The translations under genes and the position numbers were made by a program. A stretch of DNA of 33,589 nucleotides, taken from NCBI GenBank assembly GCA_016748015.1, contig JAAOMT010000530.1, positions 1,675-35,263 of the forward strand, given 5' to 3'. This DNA is from Geosiphon pyriformis (lineage: Eukaryota > Glomeromycota > Glomeromycetes > Archaeosporales > Geosiphonaceae). This document shows, one piece after another, positions 3,451 to 33,589 of this stretch. Under the pieces are notes generated by a model. That model was given only the letters and a program-made list of their open reading frames with translations. It had not been told where the DNA came from and did no database searches. Position 1 is the first letter of the stretch; every line of letters begins with the position of its first letter.

Positions 3451-5760
3451 TTCCTTAATACAAACAATAGCATATTGTTACAAGCCAGTAGGTTTTAACT
3501 TATCAGCAGAAACCTTTCAAGTATCTTTATTGAATATTTATTAAAAGAATTTTTTACATTGTTGCACAGTAAAAACTTAAACACCATTTAAAATCTATAA
3601 TTTGAAGTAATTAAAAAACACAAATATCTATCTAAAAGTTGTAGCATATCAGCTCAAGAGTATTTTTATGATTTTGGTCTGTGATAAAAAACCTAAACTT
3701 TAGAAATTATAAGTTGTTTAATAAAAAGTCTTTTTCAAGTTTTAAAATAGATAAATGTTATTCTTTAACTTCATTGTAGGGCTTAAAAGAGTAGGCTATA
3801 AAATATATCGCCAGTGAAATTTTATTAGACAGCACAACCTTCAGACAATGTATAATTAAATTATATAAAAGCAAATTTATCTTTTTATCATTTGAAAAAC
3901 TTCATACTCCTCGACAGAAAAATACACCCGTTGATTTTCTGATCCAAGTAAAGCATGTTCATATTGACCTCCCTTTTGACAAAAGCACTTTGAACTATTT
4001 TTAAAATCATTGCCATACAATCCAATATTGGCCTCTCCAAAAGTGGGTCCACAATATAAGCCACCAAAAGGTCCATATTCTGCAACAAATTTGCTAAGTA
4101 TAGCATTTTCAGCTTTGTCATCTCCAAGAGAAAAAATAAAACTTCCTTTTCCCTCTAAATATCCATTCCTAGAATGCCAAAATTGTGGGTTAAAGCCACC
4201 AATTATCTGACCAGTTCCTTTCACTTTGATTACGCTAATTGTTGCTCCTTTATCATCGCATAATCGATGAAAATTTGCTGAAGTAAATCCGTCTCGACTG
4301 CCTCGAAGTAATAATTTAAAATTATTTTCAAGTTGATTTCCAAAAGGAGTATTTTCGTCTTTTCCTTGAATCCAATGATCAAGCTGTTTTATGTTTTGCG
4401 ATTTAAGAAGCTTTGTATCAATATTTGATCGAGTCAAACGTAATGGCTGAGCGTCTACAGACTTTTGATGACTACCCGGTACGAGGTAATGATGTAAAAG
4501 ATCTTCATATAAAGTTCCAGGTAAGATTCTCGCAAATGGTTTTACTTTGTGATAAAAGTCGACTGAAGATATGTTAAAGAAGCGGATTAAAGGTAGAAGC
4601 CTTTCGATGGATTCCTTAAAGGCGTTAAAGTTTTCATCTGTCCAGTAAAGAACTTTTTTCGTCTGAATATCGCTATCCAATTTAGCAACTCCCCATTCTA
4701 CAATCTTTTCCCAAATTTCAGATTCTTTTATATTTATTTCATCCTGGGTTAAAATTGAGACAAGAGCATTTTCACTAAGGGAGGTAAAATCTTGCGAGTT
4801 GAAGACTATAGCTGGATTTTCAGCAGCTATTTCGGTGCAGAATTTTTGTAACTTTTTGAAAGAATCATACATAAATGAAGTTTTCTGCAAAGTGGCGAAA
4901 TTTACTTCTAGCTCTTTTGCACGGTGTTCAATCAAATAGTCTTCAAGGTGATCAATCATGTTTTCTAGAATAAGCTCGTCAGCGGTAACAAGAACTTCTA
5001 AAATGGTAGGTACTCCATGTTTATCAAGAGAAATCTCGCCGTTATAAATGTATCTGCAGAAAAATAAAAGTGAATTTCATGTTGGTCAAAATATTCAAAG
5101 CAAATTAAAACCCTAACCTGAGAATTATTTCAAAAATCTTTGGTGAAATATTGGGTTTAGGGAGGATTATGGTATTATTTTCCCTTTTAATCCAATTGCT
5201 AGAGAGTGCGACAGCAAAATATGGTGATCTTGCTGCTAAAATTTGGGAATGAGCTTGAAAAGTTCTAATATTGGGCGTTTCGCCAACTATAATTCTAATA
5301 TCAGAGAACTCCTGACTGTTAAATAAATTCCCAAAATCATTGGATAAAGCGTGAAAGTATTGTTGAGGTGACATCGGTAAAATATGTGAAGTCTGTGTGA
5401 AGTCTTTTTCCCTACAATCAGTATTTATGCTAGTCATATACTTATCCGGAGCAGAAGTCACATTTTAATCTGCACTTATTTTGGCCTATTAAATATTTTC
5501 TTTGTAATCAAATCGCCTCCAAAGATTAGAGCCCTATTTGAAAAGTGTGAAATATCTAAAGAGCCGAATTTTCGGTTTTTTTATTGAGTTAGCAATATAA
5601 ACAGATTTTATCGCCCAAAATGATAATTGAGTGAAACTTTTGATCTTAAAAATCTGTACAATGAATAACTTTGTTCTTAATAAAAAAAACTTTTAGGGCA
5701 GTTCATTTATTAATTTTATATTTCATTATACCATGTAATAATCCATTTTTTAAATTAATC
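3450..5760 (-). repeat. Segmental duplication, copy A
   Basis: This block carries the first BTB-BACK-TLDc gene and matches the 14140-16320 block in inverted orientation. The similarity goes beyond the coding sequence. About 350 bp upstream matches, including the stretch at 5500-5530 that reads CTTTGGAGGCGATTTGATTA on the minus strand, and several hundred bp downstream of the stop match with scattered differences. The outer limits are approximate because similarity fades gradually. Confidence 0.8.
3877..5374 (-). CDS. BTB-BACK-TLDc domain protein (copy A)
   Basis: Two exons, 5374-5118 and 5053-3877, are joined across a 64-nt intron (5117-5054; donor GTTAGG, acceptor TTCTGCAG), giving 477 aa. 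In order: a BTB/POZ domain at about residues 10-115 (FSDIRIIVGE, FQAHSQILAARSPYF), a BACK domain at about 145-265 (FTSLSENALVSIL, EIWEKIVEWG), and a C-terminal TLDc domain at about 330-475 (LLLRGSRDGFT, GGFNP, SFIFSL, ending VEEYEVF). BTB-BACK proteins usually act as cullin-3 substrate adaptors; TLDc domains are linked to V-ATPase binding and oxidative-stress response. The role of this fungal family is not established. I chose the Met at 5374 because all three copies share MSPQQYFHAL there. An in-frame ATG at 5437 would add 21 residues, but an 11-bp difference in copy B breaks that frame. It is intact and the reference for copies B and C. Confidence 0.93.
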
Positions 5761-13890: not shown

Positions 13891-14641
13891 TTATAGTCAA
13901 TGGTTTTTTTTTGATAATTATTTCAATGTTTTCTAATATATAGTAGCATTTGAAGTTCCTCAAATTATAAATTCTTTGAAGATTTGAAAATGTTCTAAAT
14001 AAATTATAAAATACATATTTGCTGAATAATTTAATTCTTAAGAAAAAATTTCAGTCAAGAATAATTTGGATTCAAAATCAACAGTTTATATAACTTATTT
14101 TGACCTTATAAACTTATAACACATAAATAATGTTTTTAGCATGCATTATTATATGGTATATTGAAATATAAAATGAAAAAATGAGCTACCCCAAAGTTTT
14201 TTTTATTAAGAACAAATTCCTTCATTGTACAGGATTCTTAAGATCAAAAGTTTCACTCGATTATAGTTCATTTTAGGCGGTAAAATCTGTTTATATAGCT
14301 AATAAAAATTTAACTCAATCAAAAAAAACCGGAAATTCGACTGTTTAGATATTTCATACTTGTCAAATAGAGGCTCTAATCTTTGGAGGCGATTTGATTA
14401 CAGCAAAGTTGCAGAATACCTTGAGAATGATCTCTCAGAGATAATGATCAATCGATAGAGTGCAGATTAACATGTGACTTCAGCATAAACACTGATCGTA
14501 GGGAAAAAGACTTCACATATTTTACCGATGTCACCTCAACAATACTTTCACGCTTTATCCAATGATTTTGGGAATTTATTTAACAGTGAGAAGTTCTCTG
14601 ATATTAGAATTATAGTTGGCGAAACGCCCAATATTAGAACT

Positions 14642-15014
14642 TTTCAAGCTCATTCCCAAATTTTAGCAGCAAGATCACCATATTTTGCTGTCGCACTCTC
14701 TAGCAATTGGATTAAAAGGGAAAATAATACCATAATCTTCCCTAAACCCAATATTTCACCAAAGATTTTTGAAATAATTCTCAGGTTAGGGTTTTCATTT
14801 GCTTTGAATATTTTGACCAACATGAAATTCACTTTTATTTTTCTGCAGATACATTTATAATGGCGAGATTTCTCTTGATCAACATGGAGTACCTACCATT
14901 TTAGAATTGCTTGTTACCGCTGATGAGCTTATTCTAGAAAACATTATTGATAATCTTGAAGACTATTTGATTGAAAACCGTGCAAAAGAACTAGAAGAAA
15001 ATTTTGCCACTTTG
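14642..15014 (+). repeat. 373-bp exact duplicate, left of gap
   Basis: Bases 14642-15014 appear identical to 15035-15407, a constant offset of 393. The segment covers the end of exon 1, the intron and the start of exon 2 of copy B. Identity right up to the gap on both sides suggests two overlapping contig ends that were scaffolded instead of merged. Confidence 0.88.
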
Positions 15015-15034
15015 NNNNNNNNNNNNNNNNNNNN
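15015..15034. other. Assembly gap of 20 N
   Basis: This is a run of exactly 20 N inside exon 2 of copy B. The length is probably a scaffolder default and not a measured distance. Confidence 0.98.
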
Positions 15035-15407
15035 TTTCAAGCTCATTCCCAAATTTTAGCAGCAAGATCACCATATTTTGCTGTCGCACTCTCTAGCAAT
15101 TGGATTAAAAGGGAAAATAATACCATAATCTTCCCTAAACCCAATATTTCACCAAAGATTTTTGAAATAATTCTCAGGTTAGGGTTTTCATTTGCTTTGA
15201 ATATTTTGACCAACATGAAATTCACTTTTATTTTTCTGCAGATACATTTATAATGGCGAGATTTCTCTTGATCAACATGGAGTACCTACCATTTTAGAAT
15301 TGCTTGTTACCGCTGATGAGCTTATTCTAGAAAACATTATTGATAATCTTGAAGACTATTTGATTGAAAACCGTGCAAAAGAACTAGAAGAAAATTTTGC
15401 CACTTTG
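15035..15407 (+). repeat. 373-bp exact duplicate, right of gap
   Basis: This is the second member of the pair described at 14642-15014. It begins abruptly within exon 1 (TTTCAAGCTCATTCCC) directly after the N run, and the gene then continues past 15407 as in copy A. Confidence 0.88.
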
Positions 15408-15880
15408 CAGAAAACTTCATTTATGCATGATTCTTTCAAAAAATTACAAAAATTCTGCACCGAAATAGCTGCTGAAAATCCAGCTATAGTCTTCAACTCG
15501 CAAGATTTTACCTCCCTTAGTGAAAATGCTCTTGTCTCAATTTTAACCCAGGATGAAATAAATATAGAAGAATCTGAAATATGGGAAAAGATTGTAGAAT
15601 GGGGAGTTGCTAAATTGGATAGCGATATTCAGACGAAAAAAGTTCTTTACTGGACAGATCAAAACTTTAACGCCTTTAAGGAATCCATCGAAAGGCTTCT
15701 ACCTTTAATCCGCTTCTTTAACATATCTTCAGTCGACTTTTATCACAAAGTAAAACCATTTGCGAGAATCTTACCTGGAACTTTATATGAAGATCTTTTA
15801 CATCATTATCTCGTACCGGGTAGTCATCAAAAGTCTGTAGACGCTCAGCCATTACGTTTGACTCGATCAAATATTGATTC

Positions 15881-15899
15881 CTGTCTCTTATACACATCT
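15881..15899 (+). other. Tn5/Nextera mosaic-end adapter sequence
   Basis: The 19 bases CTGTCTCTTATACACATCT are a perfect match to the Tn5 mosaic end used in Nextera tagmentation and mate-pair junctions. They lie exactly where copy B stops matching copy A (after 15878) and where it resumes (15900), in place of 504 bp. Translation gives the well-known adapter peptides CLLYTS on the plus strand and MCIRDR on the minus strand. Confidence 0.97.
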
Positions 15900-16320
15900 G
15901 AAGAGTATGAAGTTTTTCAAATCCTAAAAAGATAAATTTGCTTTTATATAATTTAATTATATATTGTCTGAAGGTTGTACTGTCTATCTCAGAAAATTTC
16001 ACTGGCGGAATATTTTATAGCCTATTATTTTAGGCCCCACAATAAAGTTAAAGAATAACATATATCTATTTTAGAACATCACAAAGAATTTCTAAAGTTT
16101 AGGTTTTTATCAAAGGCTAAAACCATAAAACGTTCTTTAGCTAAATAGCATTAAAAGTATAACTTTTAAATAGATACTTGTGTTTCTCCGCTAATTAAAA
16201 TCTAGATTTTAGATGATTTTTTACATTTTACTATGCAATGATATAAAATAAATACTTTTAATAAATATTTAATAAAAGAAACTCGAAAAGAGTAAAAGTC
16301 TTCAAACAAAATAAAAATCA

Positions 16321-19800: not shown

Positions 19801-20457
19801 TCTTATATTACTATATATTTATTAATGTTTTTCTTAGAGAAATTCTGCACAAACTTTCAAGAATATTAGTCAAGAAAGAATCTTAAAAACTTTTTTCAAT
19901 TAGAAACTTTGATTGTTTATGATAAAAATTATTTTTTTCAAATAACATGTGCATCTGCATTACATAGTATTAACCAAAATATAGTGGTAGCCTGAATTAT
20001 TGAATAATAAAATATTGTATATAATAAACCAATTTAAAATTGATTTAAATATTGCTTGTAGATGTGATTTTACTCAAAAAAATTTGTACCTTAATTATTT
20101 AGTAAAAAACAAGAAGTGATAGATTGGCTCTTTTTTTCTCTAAAGAATCACATAATTTCTGGTGCTCTTTTTTTAAGCGCCATGAAAATAATAAAAATCC
20201 AATCTATATTGACACCTTAACAATAAAATGTAAGAGAAGAGAAGAAGTTTTAATAAAAATATTTTACAATTTACTTGTGCATTAAAATTAAACACTTACT
20301 ATTGAGATTTTAAAGTAAAATTCTTATCTATAAAATATTTCAGAGTTTTATGCAAGAAATACGATAAAATGTATATTAAAATTCAGGCCTTGATGAAATA
20401 AACTCAACTAATTAATTTGAATTATCAAAAACCAAGCCTGTTATAATAAATTTAATA
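16900..20457. other. AT-rich gene-free stretch
   Basis: No gene is supported. The longest open frame, 18727-18936, is Lys/Ile/Asn-rich, as expected from base composition. A 9-bp inverted pair, ATAGATTGG at 20119-20127 and CCAATCTAT at 20199-20207, encloses 71 bp. I recognise no transposon protein here, although the composition resembles the stretches that do contain relics. Confidence 0.5.
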
Positions 20458-20460
20458 TAA

Positions 20461-20487
20461 AGAGGGTGTCCAAAAGTTTCCGAACAA
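20461..20487 (+). repeat. Left terminal inverted repeat
   Basis: It starts AGAGGGTGTCCAAAAGTTTC and ends CGAACAA, and is perfectly inverted at 21038-21064. The GGTGTCC opening resembles other Tc1-like ends. Confidence 0.93.
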
Positions 20488-20569
20488 ACTTTGGAGTAAC
20501 ATTCCACATGCTTGAATAATTAGAAAAGCACGAGTTTATTACTAAATTAAGTTAGTTAATTATTTAATT

Positions 20570-20957: not shown

Positions 20958-21037
20958 AAAATTTCTATAAAATTATAAATATGTTGTTTATTTTGTTTTA
21001 TTTTATAAAAAAATAAATATTATTGTTAAATAAAATC

Positions 21038-21064
21038 TTGTTCGGAAACTTTTGGACACCCTCT
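21038..21064 (-). repeat. Right terminal inverted repeat
   Basis: It reads TTGTTCGG...GGACACCCTCT on the plus strand, the exact inverse of 20461-20487. It is followed by G and then the TA target duplication. Confidence 0.93.
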
Positions 21065-21067
21065 GTA

Positions 21068-22246
21068 TAAATTAAATTTCTTTTTTTTAATAAAAGGTTG
21101 AATTATTCAAAAAATATTATAAAATTTAAATTGATAAATTTTTCTGTCTAAATTATATATCTTTTTTACTGTTTTATTCAGGTTTGAAATTAAAATTAAA
21201 TTTTTTTCGAATTCTTTAAATTTCCATTTACGTCAAATCAATTTTTTATAAATTAAATAAAACAAATTCTGTAATTTTTGTTTGGGAGATTAAATAAAAA
21301 CTTGATCAAAATAAATTATTATTAATTTTTGTATCATTTCGAATCTTCAAGTTGGGTTTTAAAATAAAATTTATTTTAATTAACACCATAACACATATGT
21401 CAAACGTTATTCTATGTCATAAAAGTATGTTTAAATTTCATTGGTTTTTATTTTTTAGTGTTATTTATATTGATGGATGTGTCAGGGTTTTACAATTATT
21501 GTCTGTCAGAGTAAGCAAAGACATATCTGATAAATAGATTTTTCATACTTTGAGCTTTTTTTTAGTTTTTCACATTCTGCATCTTTTATTTTTTATCAAT
21601 AAACTTTTTTGGTATATAAATGCTTTTAAGAGATAGCAAGAAGTTAAGTTAATTAATAACGCAGGAATATGTATGATAGTCCTATTTGAGCCATTTCTCA
21701 AAGATGTGTTTTGTACCAAAGTCCTTGCCATAACATAGAATTCAAACGAGTATGTATATTTTTAAGGATGTAGACAAGATAATATTGGTTAACAGACAAT
21801 AAATACTTGATAAGAAATGACAAAATAAAATAACATTAAACGATAATCAACAATTTTCCTAGCATACTTTTTAAATAATCGAGTAACTATTGTTTGTAGT
21901 TAATGTTTTACTTTTGTCTTTTTTCATAATTTCAATACTACCCAGGAATAAAATAAAGTAAATAACAATTTTTAACAATATTCTCAATTGTTTGTTTTAT
22001 TAAATTCATTCTAAAGCACTGATATGAAAAGCCATCTGTTTTTCAACATTTTTAATTAGTAATTTATTAGAATATATGCAAGAATTTTTATTTGATTGAT
22101 TCGAAACATTTTTTGCTATATGGATATTAAATAAGCTAAAAAGCATTATTGAATTTGTTTTGGATTAAATAGTTTTTAATAAAGGGAAATTTTATATCAA
22201 TAGAAAAAAAGTTTTTCCTTTTTTTACGACAATTTCGATTGTTTTC

Positions 22247-25200: not shown

Positions 25201-26252
25201 TTTTTTTATTTTGCTTTATTTGTTTTCCAATTAGAAAACAGTCTAGCCAAGAATTTCAAAATTTTTGAAATTAGTTTTTAATAAAACATATAGCTAAAAC
25301 TTATTCTGTATATAGTATTTACTCCTTTAATCAAACATATATCAAAGAAAAATTTGAAGCAAGAAATTATTACATTAACTAATTAATATTTTCAGTTATT
25401 TTTAATCAACTCTTTTTAAAATTTGATAATTTAAATCAGCAAATTTATAATTAAATAACTATTTATAAACAACTTAAAACACTTTTAAAAACTAAAAATA
25501 AAGAAAACTATTAAACAGTCTTTATTTTTGAACTTTTTTTAAGTGGTTTAGATTCATTATTATGTACACTAACATTTATTATGGCCCAAGATAAAGCAGA
25601 CATATTACTAGTTTTTTAAGGCATTTAAACTGTTTTAAATTACTGAAATATAAAGTTTTTTGCTATTATTTTAAGAAAATTCTTAAGATTTTATAAAATA
25701 ACTCAAAAACTTTAAAAGAACTACTATAATAAATCAATATAATAATGATTACAAATTTCAAATAGTTGGAAAATACTTTTAAGAATTACTTATTGTATAG
25801 TTTATACAAAAAACTACTAGAAAAGCTGTTTAACAAATTATTTTATAGTTACTTAAAAATATTGGTCAAAATACTATTTTATTACTATTAGATTCGAAGA
25901 AAAATTTTGCACTGCAATAAAAAATGGAAGTAAAAAGAAAGTGCAAGACTTAAAAAAATAATTACAAACTAATAAAAAAAATAGATTCTAAAAAGAATTA
26001 AACAAAAGAACAAAAAATCAATTCTTTTATCAAAGGCTTAATAACAGATTTATATTATGCTTTATGATAATATTAAAAATTTTTCTATCCTTTTTTTGAG
26101 TGTTGTTAATGCCGTTTTGTTGTTAATTCTGCTGTTGATAAAAGTCACTAAAGCTTTGATAAGTTAATTCTTCTTCCAAAGTATAGAAAAATACTTTGGA
26201 CTGTATATGCTGTTGGGTTTATAATAAAATAGTCAATTTTGTGCCAATTATT
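21068..26252. other. AT-rich gene-free stretch
   Basis: No gene is supported over about 5 kb. A slightly GC-richer patch at 22600-22710 holds the inverted pair TTCAGACG (22656-22663) and CGTCTGAA (22681-22688), a possible hairpin or transposon end beginning GGGGGTCATGTAATAC. Another short coding-like run on the minus strand near 24030-23950 (TNLNVKEVINIKVEAIHLEN) is too short to name. The rest is closed in all frames. Confidence 0.5.
22247..22310 (+). repeat. AAT-type microsatellite
   Basis: This is a run of the trinucleotide ATA/AAT that changes into ATATTA units and back over about 64 bp. Confidence 0.9.
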
Positions 26253-26459
26253 TGTATAGTTATTTTGTGGCAAAAGTTAACTCTTTTACAAAAATATTTT
26301 GTCTTTAAGCTCTTCAAAATATGTGTAGTTACTTTGCATTAAAAGTCAATTTTTTTACAAAAAAATCTTATCTGCAAGTTTTCAAAAATATGTGTAGTTA
26401 CTTTGCTGTAAAAGTCAACTCTTTTACAGAAAATCTCGACTGTAAGCTACCCAATAATA
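26253..26459 (+). repeat. Three-copy 69-bp tandem repeat
   Basis: Units start at 26253, 26322 and 26391, exactly 69 bp apart. Each begins TGTRTAGTTAYTTTG and contains AAAAGT(T/C)AA followed by TTTTTACA or CTTTTACA. The units differ by substitutions but not in length. On the minus strand each copy has a related reading, VKELTF in two of the three units (VKKLTF in the middle one), so the period of 23 codons may reflect an old protein repeat. Stops (AAG TAA) occur in the same place in the units, so it is not coding now. Confidence 0.85.
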
Positions 26460-32799: not shown

Positions 32800-32929
32800 A
32801 AGGAAGGGGACATAAATAAAAAATGGTGGGACAATGTCCGTGTACAATGTTACACTGGGACATTGTCCGGGGCGTCCGTGTCCCTGCAATATAGGTCACA
32901 GTACATCACTGTGGGTAAGCACATCAAAT
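32800..32929 (+). promoter_or_regulatory. GC-rich block with three dyad sites upstream of copy C
   Basis: This block is far richer in G and C than its surroundings and replaces the upstream sequence shared by copies A and B. It holds GGACAATGTCC (32829-32839) and GGACATTGTCC (32858-32868). Each is a palindrome with a one-base centre, and each is the inverse of the other. It also holds the hairpin CACAGT-ACATC-ACTGTG (32897-32913). All lie 75-160 bp before the start codon at 32987. They could be binding sites for a dimeric regulator or the remnant of a transposon end. Similarity with copies A and B begins abruptly at about 32930. Confidence 0.45.
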
Positions 32930-33589
32930 AGCATAAATACTGATCGTAGGGAAAAAGACTTCACACAGACTTCACATATTTTACCGATGTCACCTCAACA
33001 ATACTTTCACGCTTTATCCAATGATTTTGGGAATTTATTTAACAGTCAGGAGTTCTCTGATATTAGAATTATAGTTGGCGAAACGCCCAATATTAGAACT
33101 TTTCATGCTCATTCCCAAATTTTAGCAGCAAGATCACCATATTTTGCTGTCGCACTCTCTAGCAATTGGATTAAAAGGGAAAAAAATACCATAATCTTCC
33201 CTAAACCCAATATTTCACCAAAGATTTTTGAAATAATTCTCAGGCAAGGGTTATCATTTGCTTTGAATATTTTGACCAACATGAAATTCACTTTTTATTT
33301 TTCTGCAGATACATTTATAATGGCGAGATTTCTCTTGATAAACATGGAGTACCTACCATTTTAGAAGTTCTTGTTACCGCTGATGAGCTTATTCTAGAAA
33401 ACATTATTGATCATCTTGAAGACTATTTGATTGAAAACCGTGCAAAAGAACTAGAAGAAAATTTCGCCACTTTGCAGAAAACTTCATTTATGTATGATTC
33501 TTTCAAAAAGGTACAAAAATTCTGCACCGAAATAGCTGCTGAAAATCCAGCTATAGTCTTCAACTCGCAAGATTTTACCTCCCTTAGTG
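32930..33589 (+). repeat. Segmental duplication, copy C (continues beyond window)
   Basis: From AGCATAAATACTGATCGTAG at about 32930 the sequence matches copies A and B through to the window end. Unlike A and B, the similarity does not extend further upstream, so copy C arose by a separate event or has lost its old 5' flank. Confidence 0.85.
32987..33589 (+). CDS. BTB-BACK-TLDc protein, copy C, 5' part only
   Basis: Exon 1 is 32987-33243, the intron 33244-33308 (65 nt) and exon 2 starts at 33309 and runs off the window at 33589 within the BACK domain. The visible part is about 179 codons with no stop or frameshift and is nearly the same as copy A: FSDIRIIVGE and the conserved BTB core, then FTSLS of the BACK domain as the last residues. 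Differences include His for Gln (FHAHSQ) and Lys for Asn in REKNTI. The intron donor is GC, not GT (CAG|GCAAGG against CAG|GTTAGG in A and B), a rarer but functional donor class when the flanking bases fit this well. The frame is open upstream to an ATG at 32834, but that part is not conserved in the other copies, so MSPQQ is preferred. Whether the TLDc domain is present cannot be seen. Confidence 0.88.

Follow-up and report, generated by a model that had tools for sequence, protein, structure and literature searches.

A Tn5 mosaic end, very probably an assembly artefact, at the apparent TLDc loss of a BTB-BACK-TLDc gene in Geosiphon pyriformis

Gene copies in the window

The window, by which we mean the whole stretch of 33,589 nucleotides of Geosiphon pyriformis DNA analysed here (C161:1675-35263; G+C 24.4%), contains three paralogs of a large BTB-BACK-TLDc gene family, referred to as copies A, B and C (Table 1). 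BTB-BACK proteins act as cullin-3 adaptors and, judging by their Pfam domains, copies A and B (BACK) and C (BTB) are candidate cullin-3 substrate adaptors. The TLDc domain of copy A is recognised by Pfam as PF07534 with an E-value of 4.9e-15. The BACK and TLDc domains of copy A and the BTB domain of copy C resemble those of BTB-BACK-TLDc genes of arbuscular mycorrhizal fungi and their relatives, from which the assembled copy B differs in having no TLDc, a difference that we ascribe to the scar described below. An enrichment of BTB and BACK proteins has been reported for Rhizophagus irregularis (PMC3886924), and BTB expansions for Paraglomus occultum (PMC9453076); the passages of these two papers that deal with the matter make no mention of TLDc.

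Table 1. Features of the three gene copies and of the scar, in window coordinates
Feature	Position	Strand	Remarks
Copy A, intact paralog, 477 aa	3877..5374	-	exons 5374-5118 and 5053-3877; Pfam BACK and TLDc in exon 2
TLDc-coding 504 nt of copy A without counterpart in assembled copy B	3913..4416	-	
Copy B, first partial piece	14528..15014	+	exon 1 14528-14784, intron 14785-14848, exon 2 from 14849
20-N scaffold gap inside copy B	15015..15034	.	overlap left unmerged
Copy B, second partial piece	15035..15880	+	part of exon 1 and the intron again, exon 2 from 15242 with BACK
Two bases TC separating the A/B alignment from the mosaic end	15879..15880	+	probably genomic
Tn5 mosaic end, 19 bp	15881..15899	-	very probably an artefact; outer end faces 15880, inner end faces 15900
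Copy B, last 11 TLDc codons and stop	15900..15935	+	followed by 3′ flank matching other family members
Copy C, third paralog	32929..33589	+	BTB by Pfam in ORF 32834-33364; ended by the edge of contig C161 (35,263 bp)

Copy B is interrupted by the scaffold gap, on either side of which the same 373 bp are found (14642-15014 and 15035-15407), such that part of its 5′ half is present twice. Two overlapping pieces have here been set side by side without being merged, which constitutes a second assembly fault in copy B. The preliminary description had proposed a BTB-BACK product of 316 aa for this copy; the length is reproduced, but it requires exon 1 of the first piece (14528-14784) to be spliced to exon 2 of the second piece (15242-15935), thereby skipping both the gap, which that description leaves unmentioned, and the exact duplication. 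The same splice signals yield the 477 aa of copy A.

Two repeats lie elsewhere in the window. The arms of a 46-nt inverted repeat (20456-20501 and 21024-21069; 85%) are 522 nt apart and have the shape of a small transposable element, and a 69-bp unit occurs three times in tandem at 26250-26456, the second and third units being 72% and 62% identical to the first.

A mosaic end at the junction in copy B

The 19 bases that follow the second piece of copy B match the reverse complement of AGATGTGTATAAGAGACAG at 19 of 19 positions and constitute a perfect Tn5 mosaic end (ME), as the preliminary description had claimed. No other place in the window matches when up to three mismatches are allowed, the chance expectation being 0.02. 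The ME coincides with a break in the alignment between copies A and B: positions 4417-5260 of copy A (reverse strand) pair with 15035-15878 of copy B (844 nt, 20 differences) and positions 3826-3912 (reverse strand) with 15900-15986 (87 nt, 5 differences). The 504 nt that lie between these arms in copy A correspond to 21 nt (15879-15899) in copy B, and the reading frame is kept, so that the arms agree with the earlier statement that copy B loses 504 bp and gains 21 in an open frame. Of the 21, the first two bases are probably genomic and form the start of a Ser codon, because the TLDc segment of the paralog C351p begins with Ser; the scar proper would then measure 19 bp.

Translation across the scar reproduces the peptides named in the preliminary description, with CLLYTS in frame and MCIRD on the opposite strand. 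CLLYTS and MCIRDR are known as an adapter signature found in protein databases. The claim that the product lacks TLDc is likewise borne out by Pfam, which above its cut-off recognises BACK and TLDc in copy A and BACK alone in copy B. Even up to an E-value of 10, Pfam reports no TLDc in copy B, the matches being BACK and two sub-threshold hits to unrelated families. Copy B nevertheless retains the C-terminal 11 codons of TLDc, encoding EEYEVFQILKR, together with the stop codon.

Mosaic ends across the assembly

The whole assembly of 124,688,122 bases in 406 contigs was searched for the ME. Perfect copies number 99 in the 124.7 Mb (51 forward and 48 reverse), and the reversed pattern used as a control has none. 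With up to three mismatches there are 118 matches versus 14 for the control, which leaves 19 imperfect copies, a number at chance level. Thus, the ME has no decay series, whereas in a natural repeat present about 100 times one would expect to find decayed members.

Flanks were read for all 99 scars, extending up to 1,500 bases per side for 20 of them and 600 bases for the other 79. At none of the 99 is the inner end of the ME followed by 5 nt or more of a Nextera handle, the longest prefix being 3 nt. Nor does a reverse ME follow directly on the first, inner end to inner end, at any of the 99 scars, which thereby differ from a Nextera Long Mate Pair junction, where two adaptors are joined and the exact form is 38 bp. 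At C134:56914-56971 (L008 1501-1558) two MEs with facing inner ends lie 20 bp apart, the only such pair among the 99. A TruSeq adapter residue was rejected, as the TruSeq adapter start AGATCGGAAGAGC has no match in the whole assembly.

Thirteen of the 99 scars, the one in the window and 12 besides, lie within stop-to-stop frames that remain open across the scar, counted where the frame has 100 codons or more within the 600-base flanks, with a minimum of 50 to one side of the scar and 10 to the other. Two scars on different contigs (L034 and L071) have identical sequence over the 24 bases preceding the ME, and their outer flanks are 96% alike over 441 nt; their inner flanks differ, as if one repeat-derived end had served at two places.

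A Tn5 target signal on the outer side

The target motif of Nextera transposase is given as GTNYWRNAC in a passage of PMC8224930, which cites A-GNTYWRANC-T for wild-type Tn5. Compared with GTNYWRNAC, the outer 9 bp of the 99 scars score a mean of 4.06 out of 7, the top of 500 offsets, whereas the background over offsets 9-499 is 2.66 +/- 0.13 with a maximum of 3.12. The base composition of the outer flank deviates at several positions, with C in 34 and A in 9 of 99 scars at -1 (p 8.8e-11), a purine in 78 of 99 at -4 (p = 2e-7), A or T in 85 of 99 at -5, a pyrimidine in 74 of 99 at -6 and G in 30 of 99 at -9. By contrast, the inner 9 bp score 2.77 over the 99 scars, which is at background level, and the smallest p among 30 positions of the inner flank is 0.0093. 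The flanks of the scars have a G+C content of 29.6%.

The 9-bp target duplication is absent across the 99 scars, the last and first 9 bases agreeing at 2.73 of 9 positions versus 2.62 for shuffled partners. Since the motif is confined to the outer side, the scars as a set consist of a transposase cut made in vitro on one side and an arbitrary join on the other. This evidence is collective: at the window junction, the outer 9 bp TATTGATTC fit the motif at 3 of 7 positions and the inner side GAAGAGTAT at 4 of 7, and the single outer score of 3/7 by itself says nothing.

Origin of the scar and the state of copy B

We conclude, with a probability of about 0.96, that the 19 bases are the synthetic mosaic end of Tn5, carried over from a tagmentation library, and an artefact of assembly. 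The preliminary description had also taken them for an adapter artefact, a reading that is upheld by the 99 copies versus none in the control, the lack of decay, the one-sided motif and near-exact duplications at 4 of the 99 scars. Similar to Nextera/Tn5 adapter carry-over, in which the same 19-bp ME opens both Nextera trimming sequences (as listed in PMC3906532), the scars bear the published Tn5 target motif on their outer side (PMC8224930, in the passage on the motif). They are distinct in that no handle is present (0/99) and in that the ME is internal to scaffolds and abuts genomic sequence. Thus, the earlier naming of a Nextera/Tn5 ME is correct as to the identity of the ME, but standard read-through with a handle does not describe the scars. 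According to a passage on NextClip (PMC3928519), the Nextera Long Mate Pair protocol uses transposase to put a bare 19-bp biotinylated adaptor on fragment ends, which is akin to the handle-free scars. The lack of handles fits either such a bare adaptor or trimming that stopped at the ME, and the library would most likely have been of the Nextera mate-pair type or have consisted of Nextera reads from which the handle was trimmed and the ME kept.

We suggest that the transposase cut the genomic DNA of copy B in vitro at 15880/15881, and that reads ending in the ME were incompletely trimmed. During assembly or gap closing, a contig would then have grown to include the ME and been linked straight to the following piece, whose start at 15900 would lie about 500 bp further along the gene. 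The repeated gene family probably made the region of copy B hard to assemble. The missing TLDc stretch would accordingly be a gap left by the assembly and unmarked by Ns, and the frame would have been preserved by a one-in-three chance.

Other scars are accompanied by a different fault. At 4 of the 99, the inner flank opens with a tail-to-head repeat of the bases preceding the ME that is 97-99.8% identical, namely at L006 (198 bp, 2 mismatches), L012 (855 bp, 2 mismatches), L048 (266 bp, 2 mismatches) and L061 (139 bp, 4 mismatches), and a fifth repeat of about 760 bp is indicated by flank alignment at L062. The remaining 94 of 99 scars have no tail-to-head duplication within the flanks read, which span just 600 bases for 79 of the 99. 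Such repeats are to be expected where the overlapping ends of two contigs are placed one after the other, the situation also seen at the 20-N gap of the window. The copy B junction instead jumps forward, with about 500 bp missing relative to copy A. A paralog at C258:157700-160200 (L119) lacks about 284 bp of exon sequence at a 20-N gap. Together with the forward loss and the 373-bp duplication in copy B, this indicates that both kinds of fault occur in the BTB-BACK-TLDc family.

An alternative that would still make the 19 bases an artefact is a ligation chimera, in which library preparation ligated an ME-ended fragment to an end that had not been tagmented, the resulting chimeric read being assembled unchanged. 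The absence of a handle from all 99 inner sides is compatible with this, as is the 19-bp length of the Nextera mate-pair adaptor (given in part of PMC3928519), and small circles would likewise be consistent with the tail-to-head repeats (139-855 bp) found at 4 of 99 scars. Self-circles, however, should place the inner flank a second time upstream of the outer flank. On its own contig the inner flank of the window scar (15900-16250) matches only copy A (77%, opposite strand), and its next best match in the genome, at 90%, lies on another contig (C258). At three other loci checked among the 99, further matches to the inner flank on its own contig have at most 91% identity, and the whole 500-base flank recurs on another contig at no more than 98%, with one 138-base piece at 99%. 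Moreover, a self-circle does not give the forward jump of about 500 bp in copy B. Mate-pair self-circles as the general cause are therefore unsupported by the window or by the three loci, and they are possible for the four or five tail-to-head scars; overall we regard a ligation chimera as unlikely.

The identity of the scar as an artefact does not settle what copy B contains, as the junction alone does not tell what lies between its two sides, and copy B might in the genome genuinely be without TLDc or have a damaged one. A search with the BACK region of copy B gave 40 scored matches of 165 candidates, copy B itself among the 40. All 39 other scored copies continue from BACK into TLDc (two partial, one frameshifted). 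In 30 of these 39, a TLDc DNA match lies directly downstream, and in the remaining nine TLDc is found by tblastn, over 172-179 of 179 residues in six, in two frames in L116, over 68 residues in L108 and over 44 residues up to the contig end in L113. Thus, no family member ends after BACK among the 39 others of these 40 scored copies (0/39), and copy B stands alone in being without TLDc. Damage does occur in the family, since 7 of 39 copies examined for stops have them, the frame of L116 is broken and L108 matches TLDc over no more than 68 residues. Yet in all 39 other BACK copies checked, BACK is followed directly by at least the beginning of TLDc, and copy B still has the last 11 codons of the domain as well as a 3′ flank matching that of other members. 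We consider a true loss or damage in copy B to be highly improbable, and the family comparison (39/39) indicates that TLDc is likely present in it.

Among the 40 scored matches, the BACK part of copy B is closest to the copy on C226 and to copy A (99%), whereas its inner flank (15900-16250), with matches to the 3′ ends of further members, is closest to one on C258 (90%). In the intact copies compared, identity also falls from BACK to TLDc to the 3′ flank, and the differing closest relatives of copy B are therefore no proof of a chimera.

That the 19 bases are real organismal DNA, a Tn5-derived or other short mobile sequence inserted about 100 times, has next to no likelihood: the dispersal of about 100 copies and their one-sided target preference would be in keeping with it, but the 99 copies are perfect with imperfect ones not above chance, the 19-mer is the synthetic mosaic end (PMC3046479, with the sequence in PMC3906532, each in the passage concerned), the other side is without target signal, the 9-bp target duplication is lacking and some scars span duplications, as in unmerged contigs. 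A natural insertion or short mobile element was rejected on the chance-level imperfect copies, the one-sided target preference and the missing target duplication, and a natural Tn5/IS50-like insertion on the lack of a second ME in the window and of a 9-bp duplication and on an inner side without target signal.

The apparent TLDc loss of copy B is to be discarded, and nothing biological is to be concluded from it. The preliminary description went further in holding any claim of natural loss to be false; the assembly indeed gives no evidence of loss, but this wording is too strong. As assembled, copy B would be listed in protein databases as a BTB-BACK protein without TLDc that bears an adapter-derived peptide. 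The assembly contains 98 further scars, and its gene models, domain counts and claims of domain loss need to be screened for the 19-mer, given that at some scars sequence is duplicated or, as in copy B, apparently lost without a run of Ns. In the titles and abstract openings of the papers listed by the literature searches there is no report of these scars or of TLDc variability in Geosiphon, which says little, the genome paper lying outside the search.

Variable positions in TLDc

The TLDc of the family shows an excess of nonsynonymous change, in the window at 3880-4416 and in the paralogs L101-L107 and L120-L150, and BACK is more conserved. Pooled over 8 close intact paralogs, pN/pS is 0.20 at the end of BACK and 0.79 in TLDc. 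A search for TLDc gave 40 scored matches of 163 candidates, of which one partial match was left out and 13 of the remaining 39 were excluded because of stops or coverage; for the 26 copies kept, tree-based ratios of substitution counts are 0.37 in BACK and 0.74 in TLDc. In ten-codon blocks, the ratios reach 1.9-2.4 at 282-311 and 322-331, and two BACK blocks also exceed 1 (1.10 and 1.30). Single-site binomial tests give 5 sites with p < 0.05, uncorrected.

Under a grid site model, a class above 1 is preferred in TLDc (2 delta lnL 173 with the null re-optimised; 19 sites with P > 0.9) and, more weakly, in BACK (34; 7 sites; 20 sequences). These site tests ignore recombination between paralogs and variable synonymous rates, both of which can inflate them, and because the BACK control is also positive, part of the TLDc signal may be due to such inflation. 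Sequence searching at an E-value of 0.01 matched no solved structure to TLDc, and a single-sequence AlphaFold2 model of the segment was set aside with a mean pLDDT of 31.7.

The fast-evolving positions of TLDc cluster at 264-269, 293-310, 324-332 and 344 (numbered in the 360-aa ORF of copy A). On the basis of these rate analyses, we tentatively suggest that TLDc may be under diversifying selection at clustered positions and act as a variable recognition domain on cullin-3 adaptors, one that could recognise foreign or symbiont proteins. The closest known logic is that of the nematode MATH-BTB adaptors. Indeed, for nematode F-box and MATH-BTB adaptors, a passage in PMC4334554, citing Thomas 2006, describes positive selection in the substrate-binding but not the cullin-binding domains.
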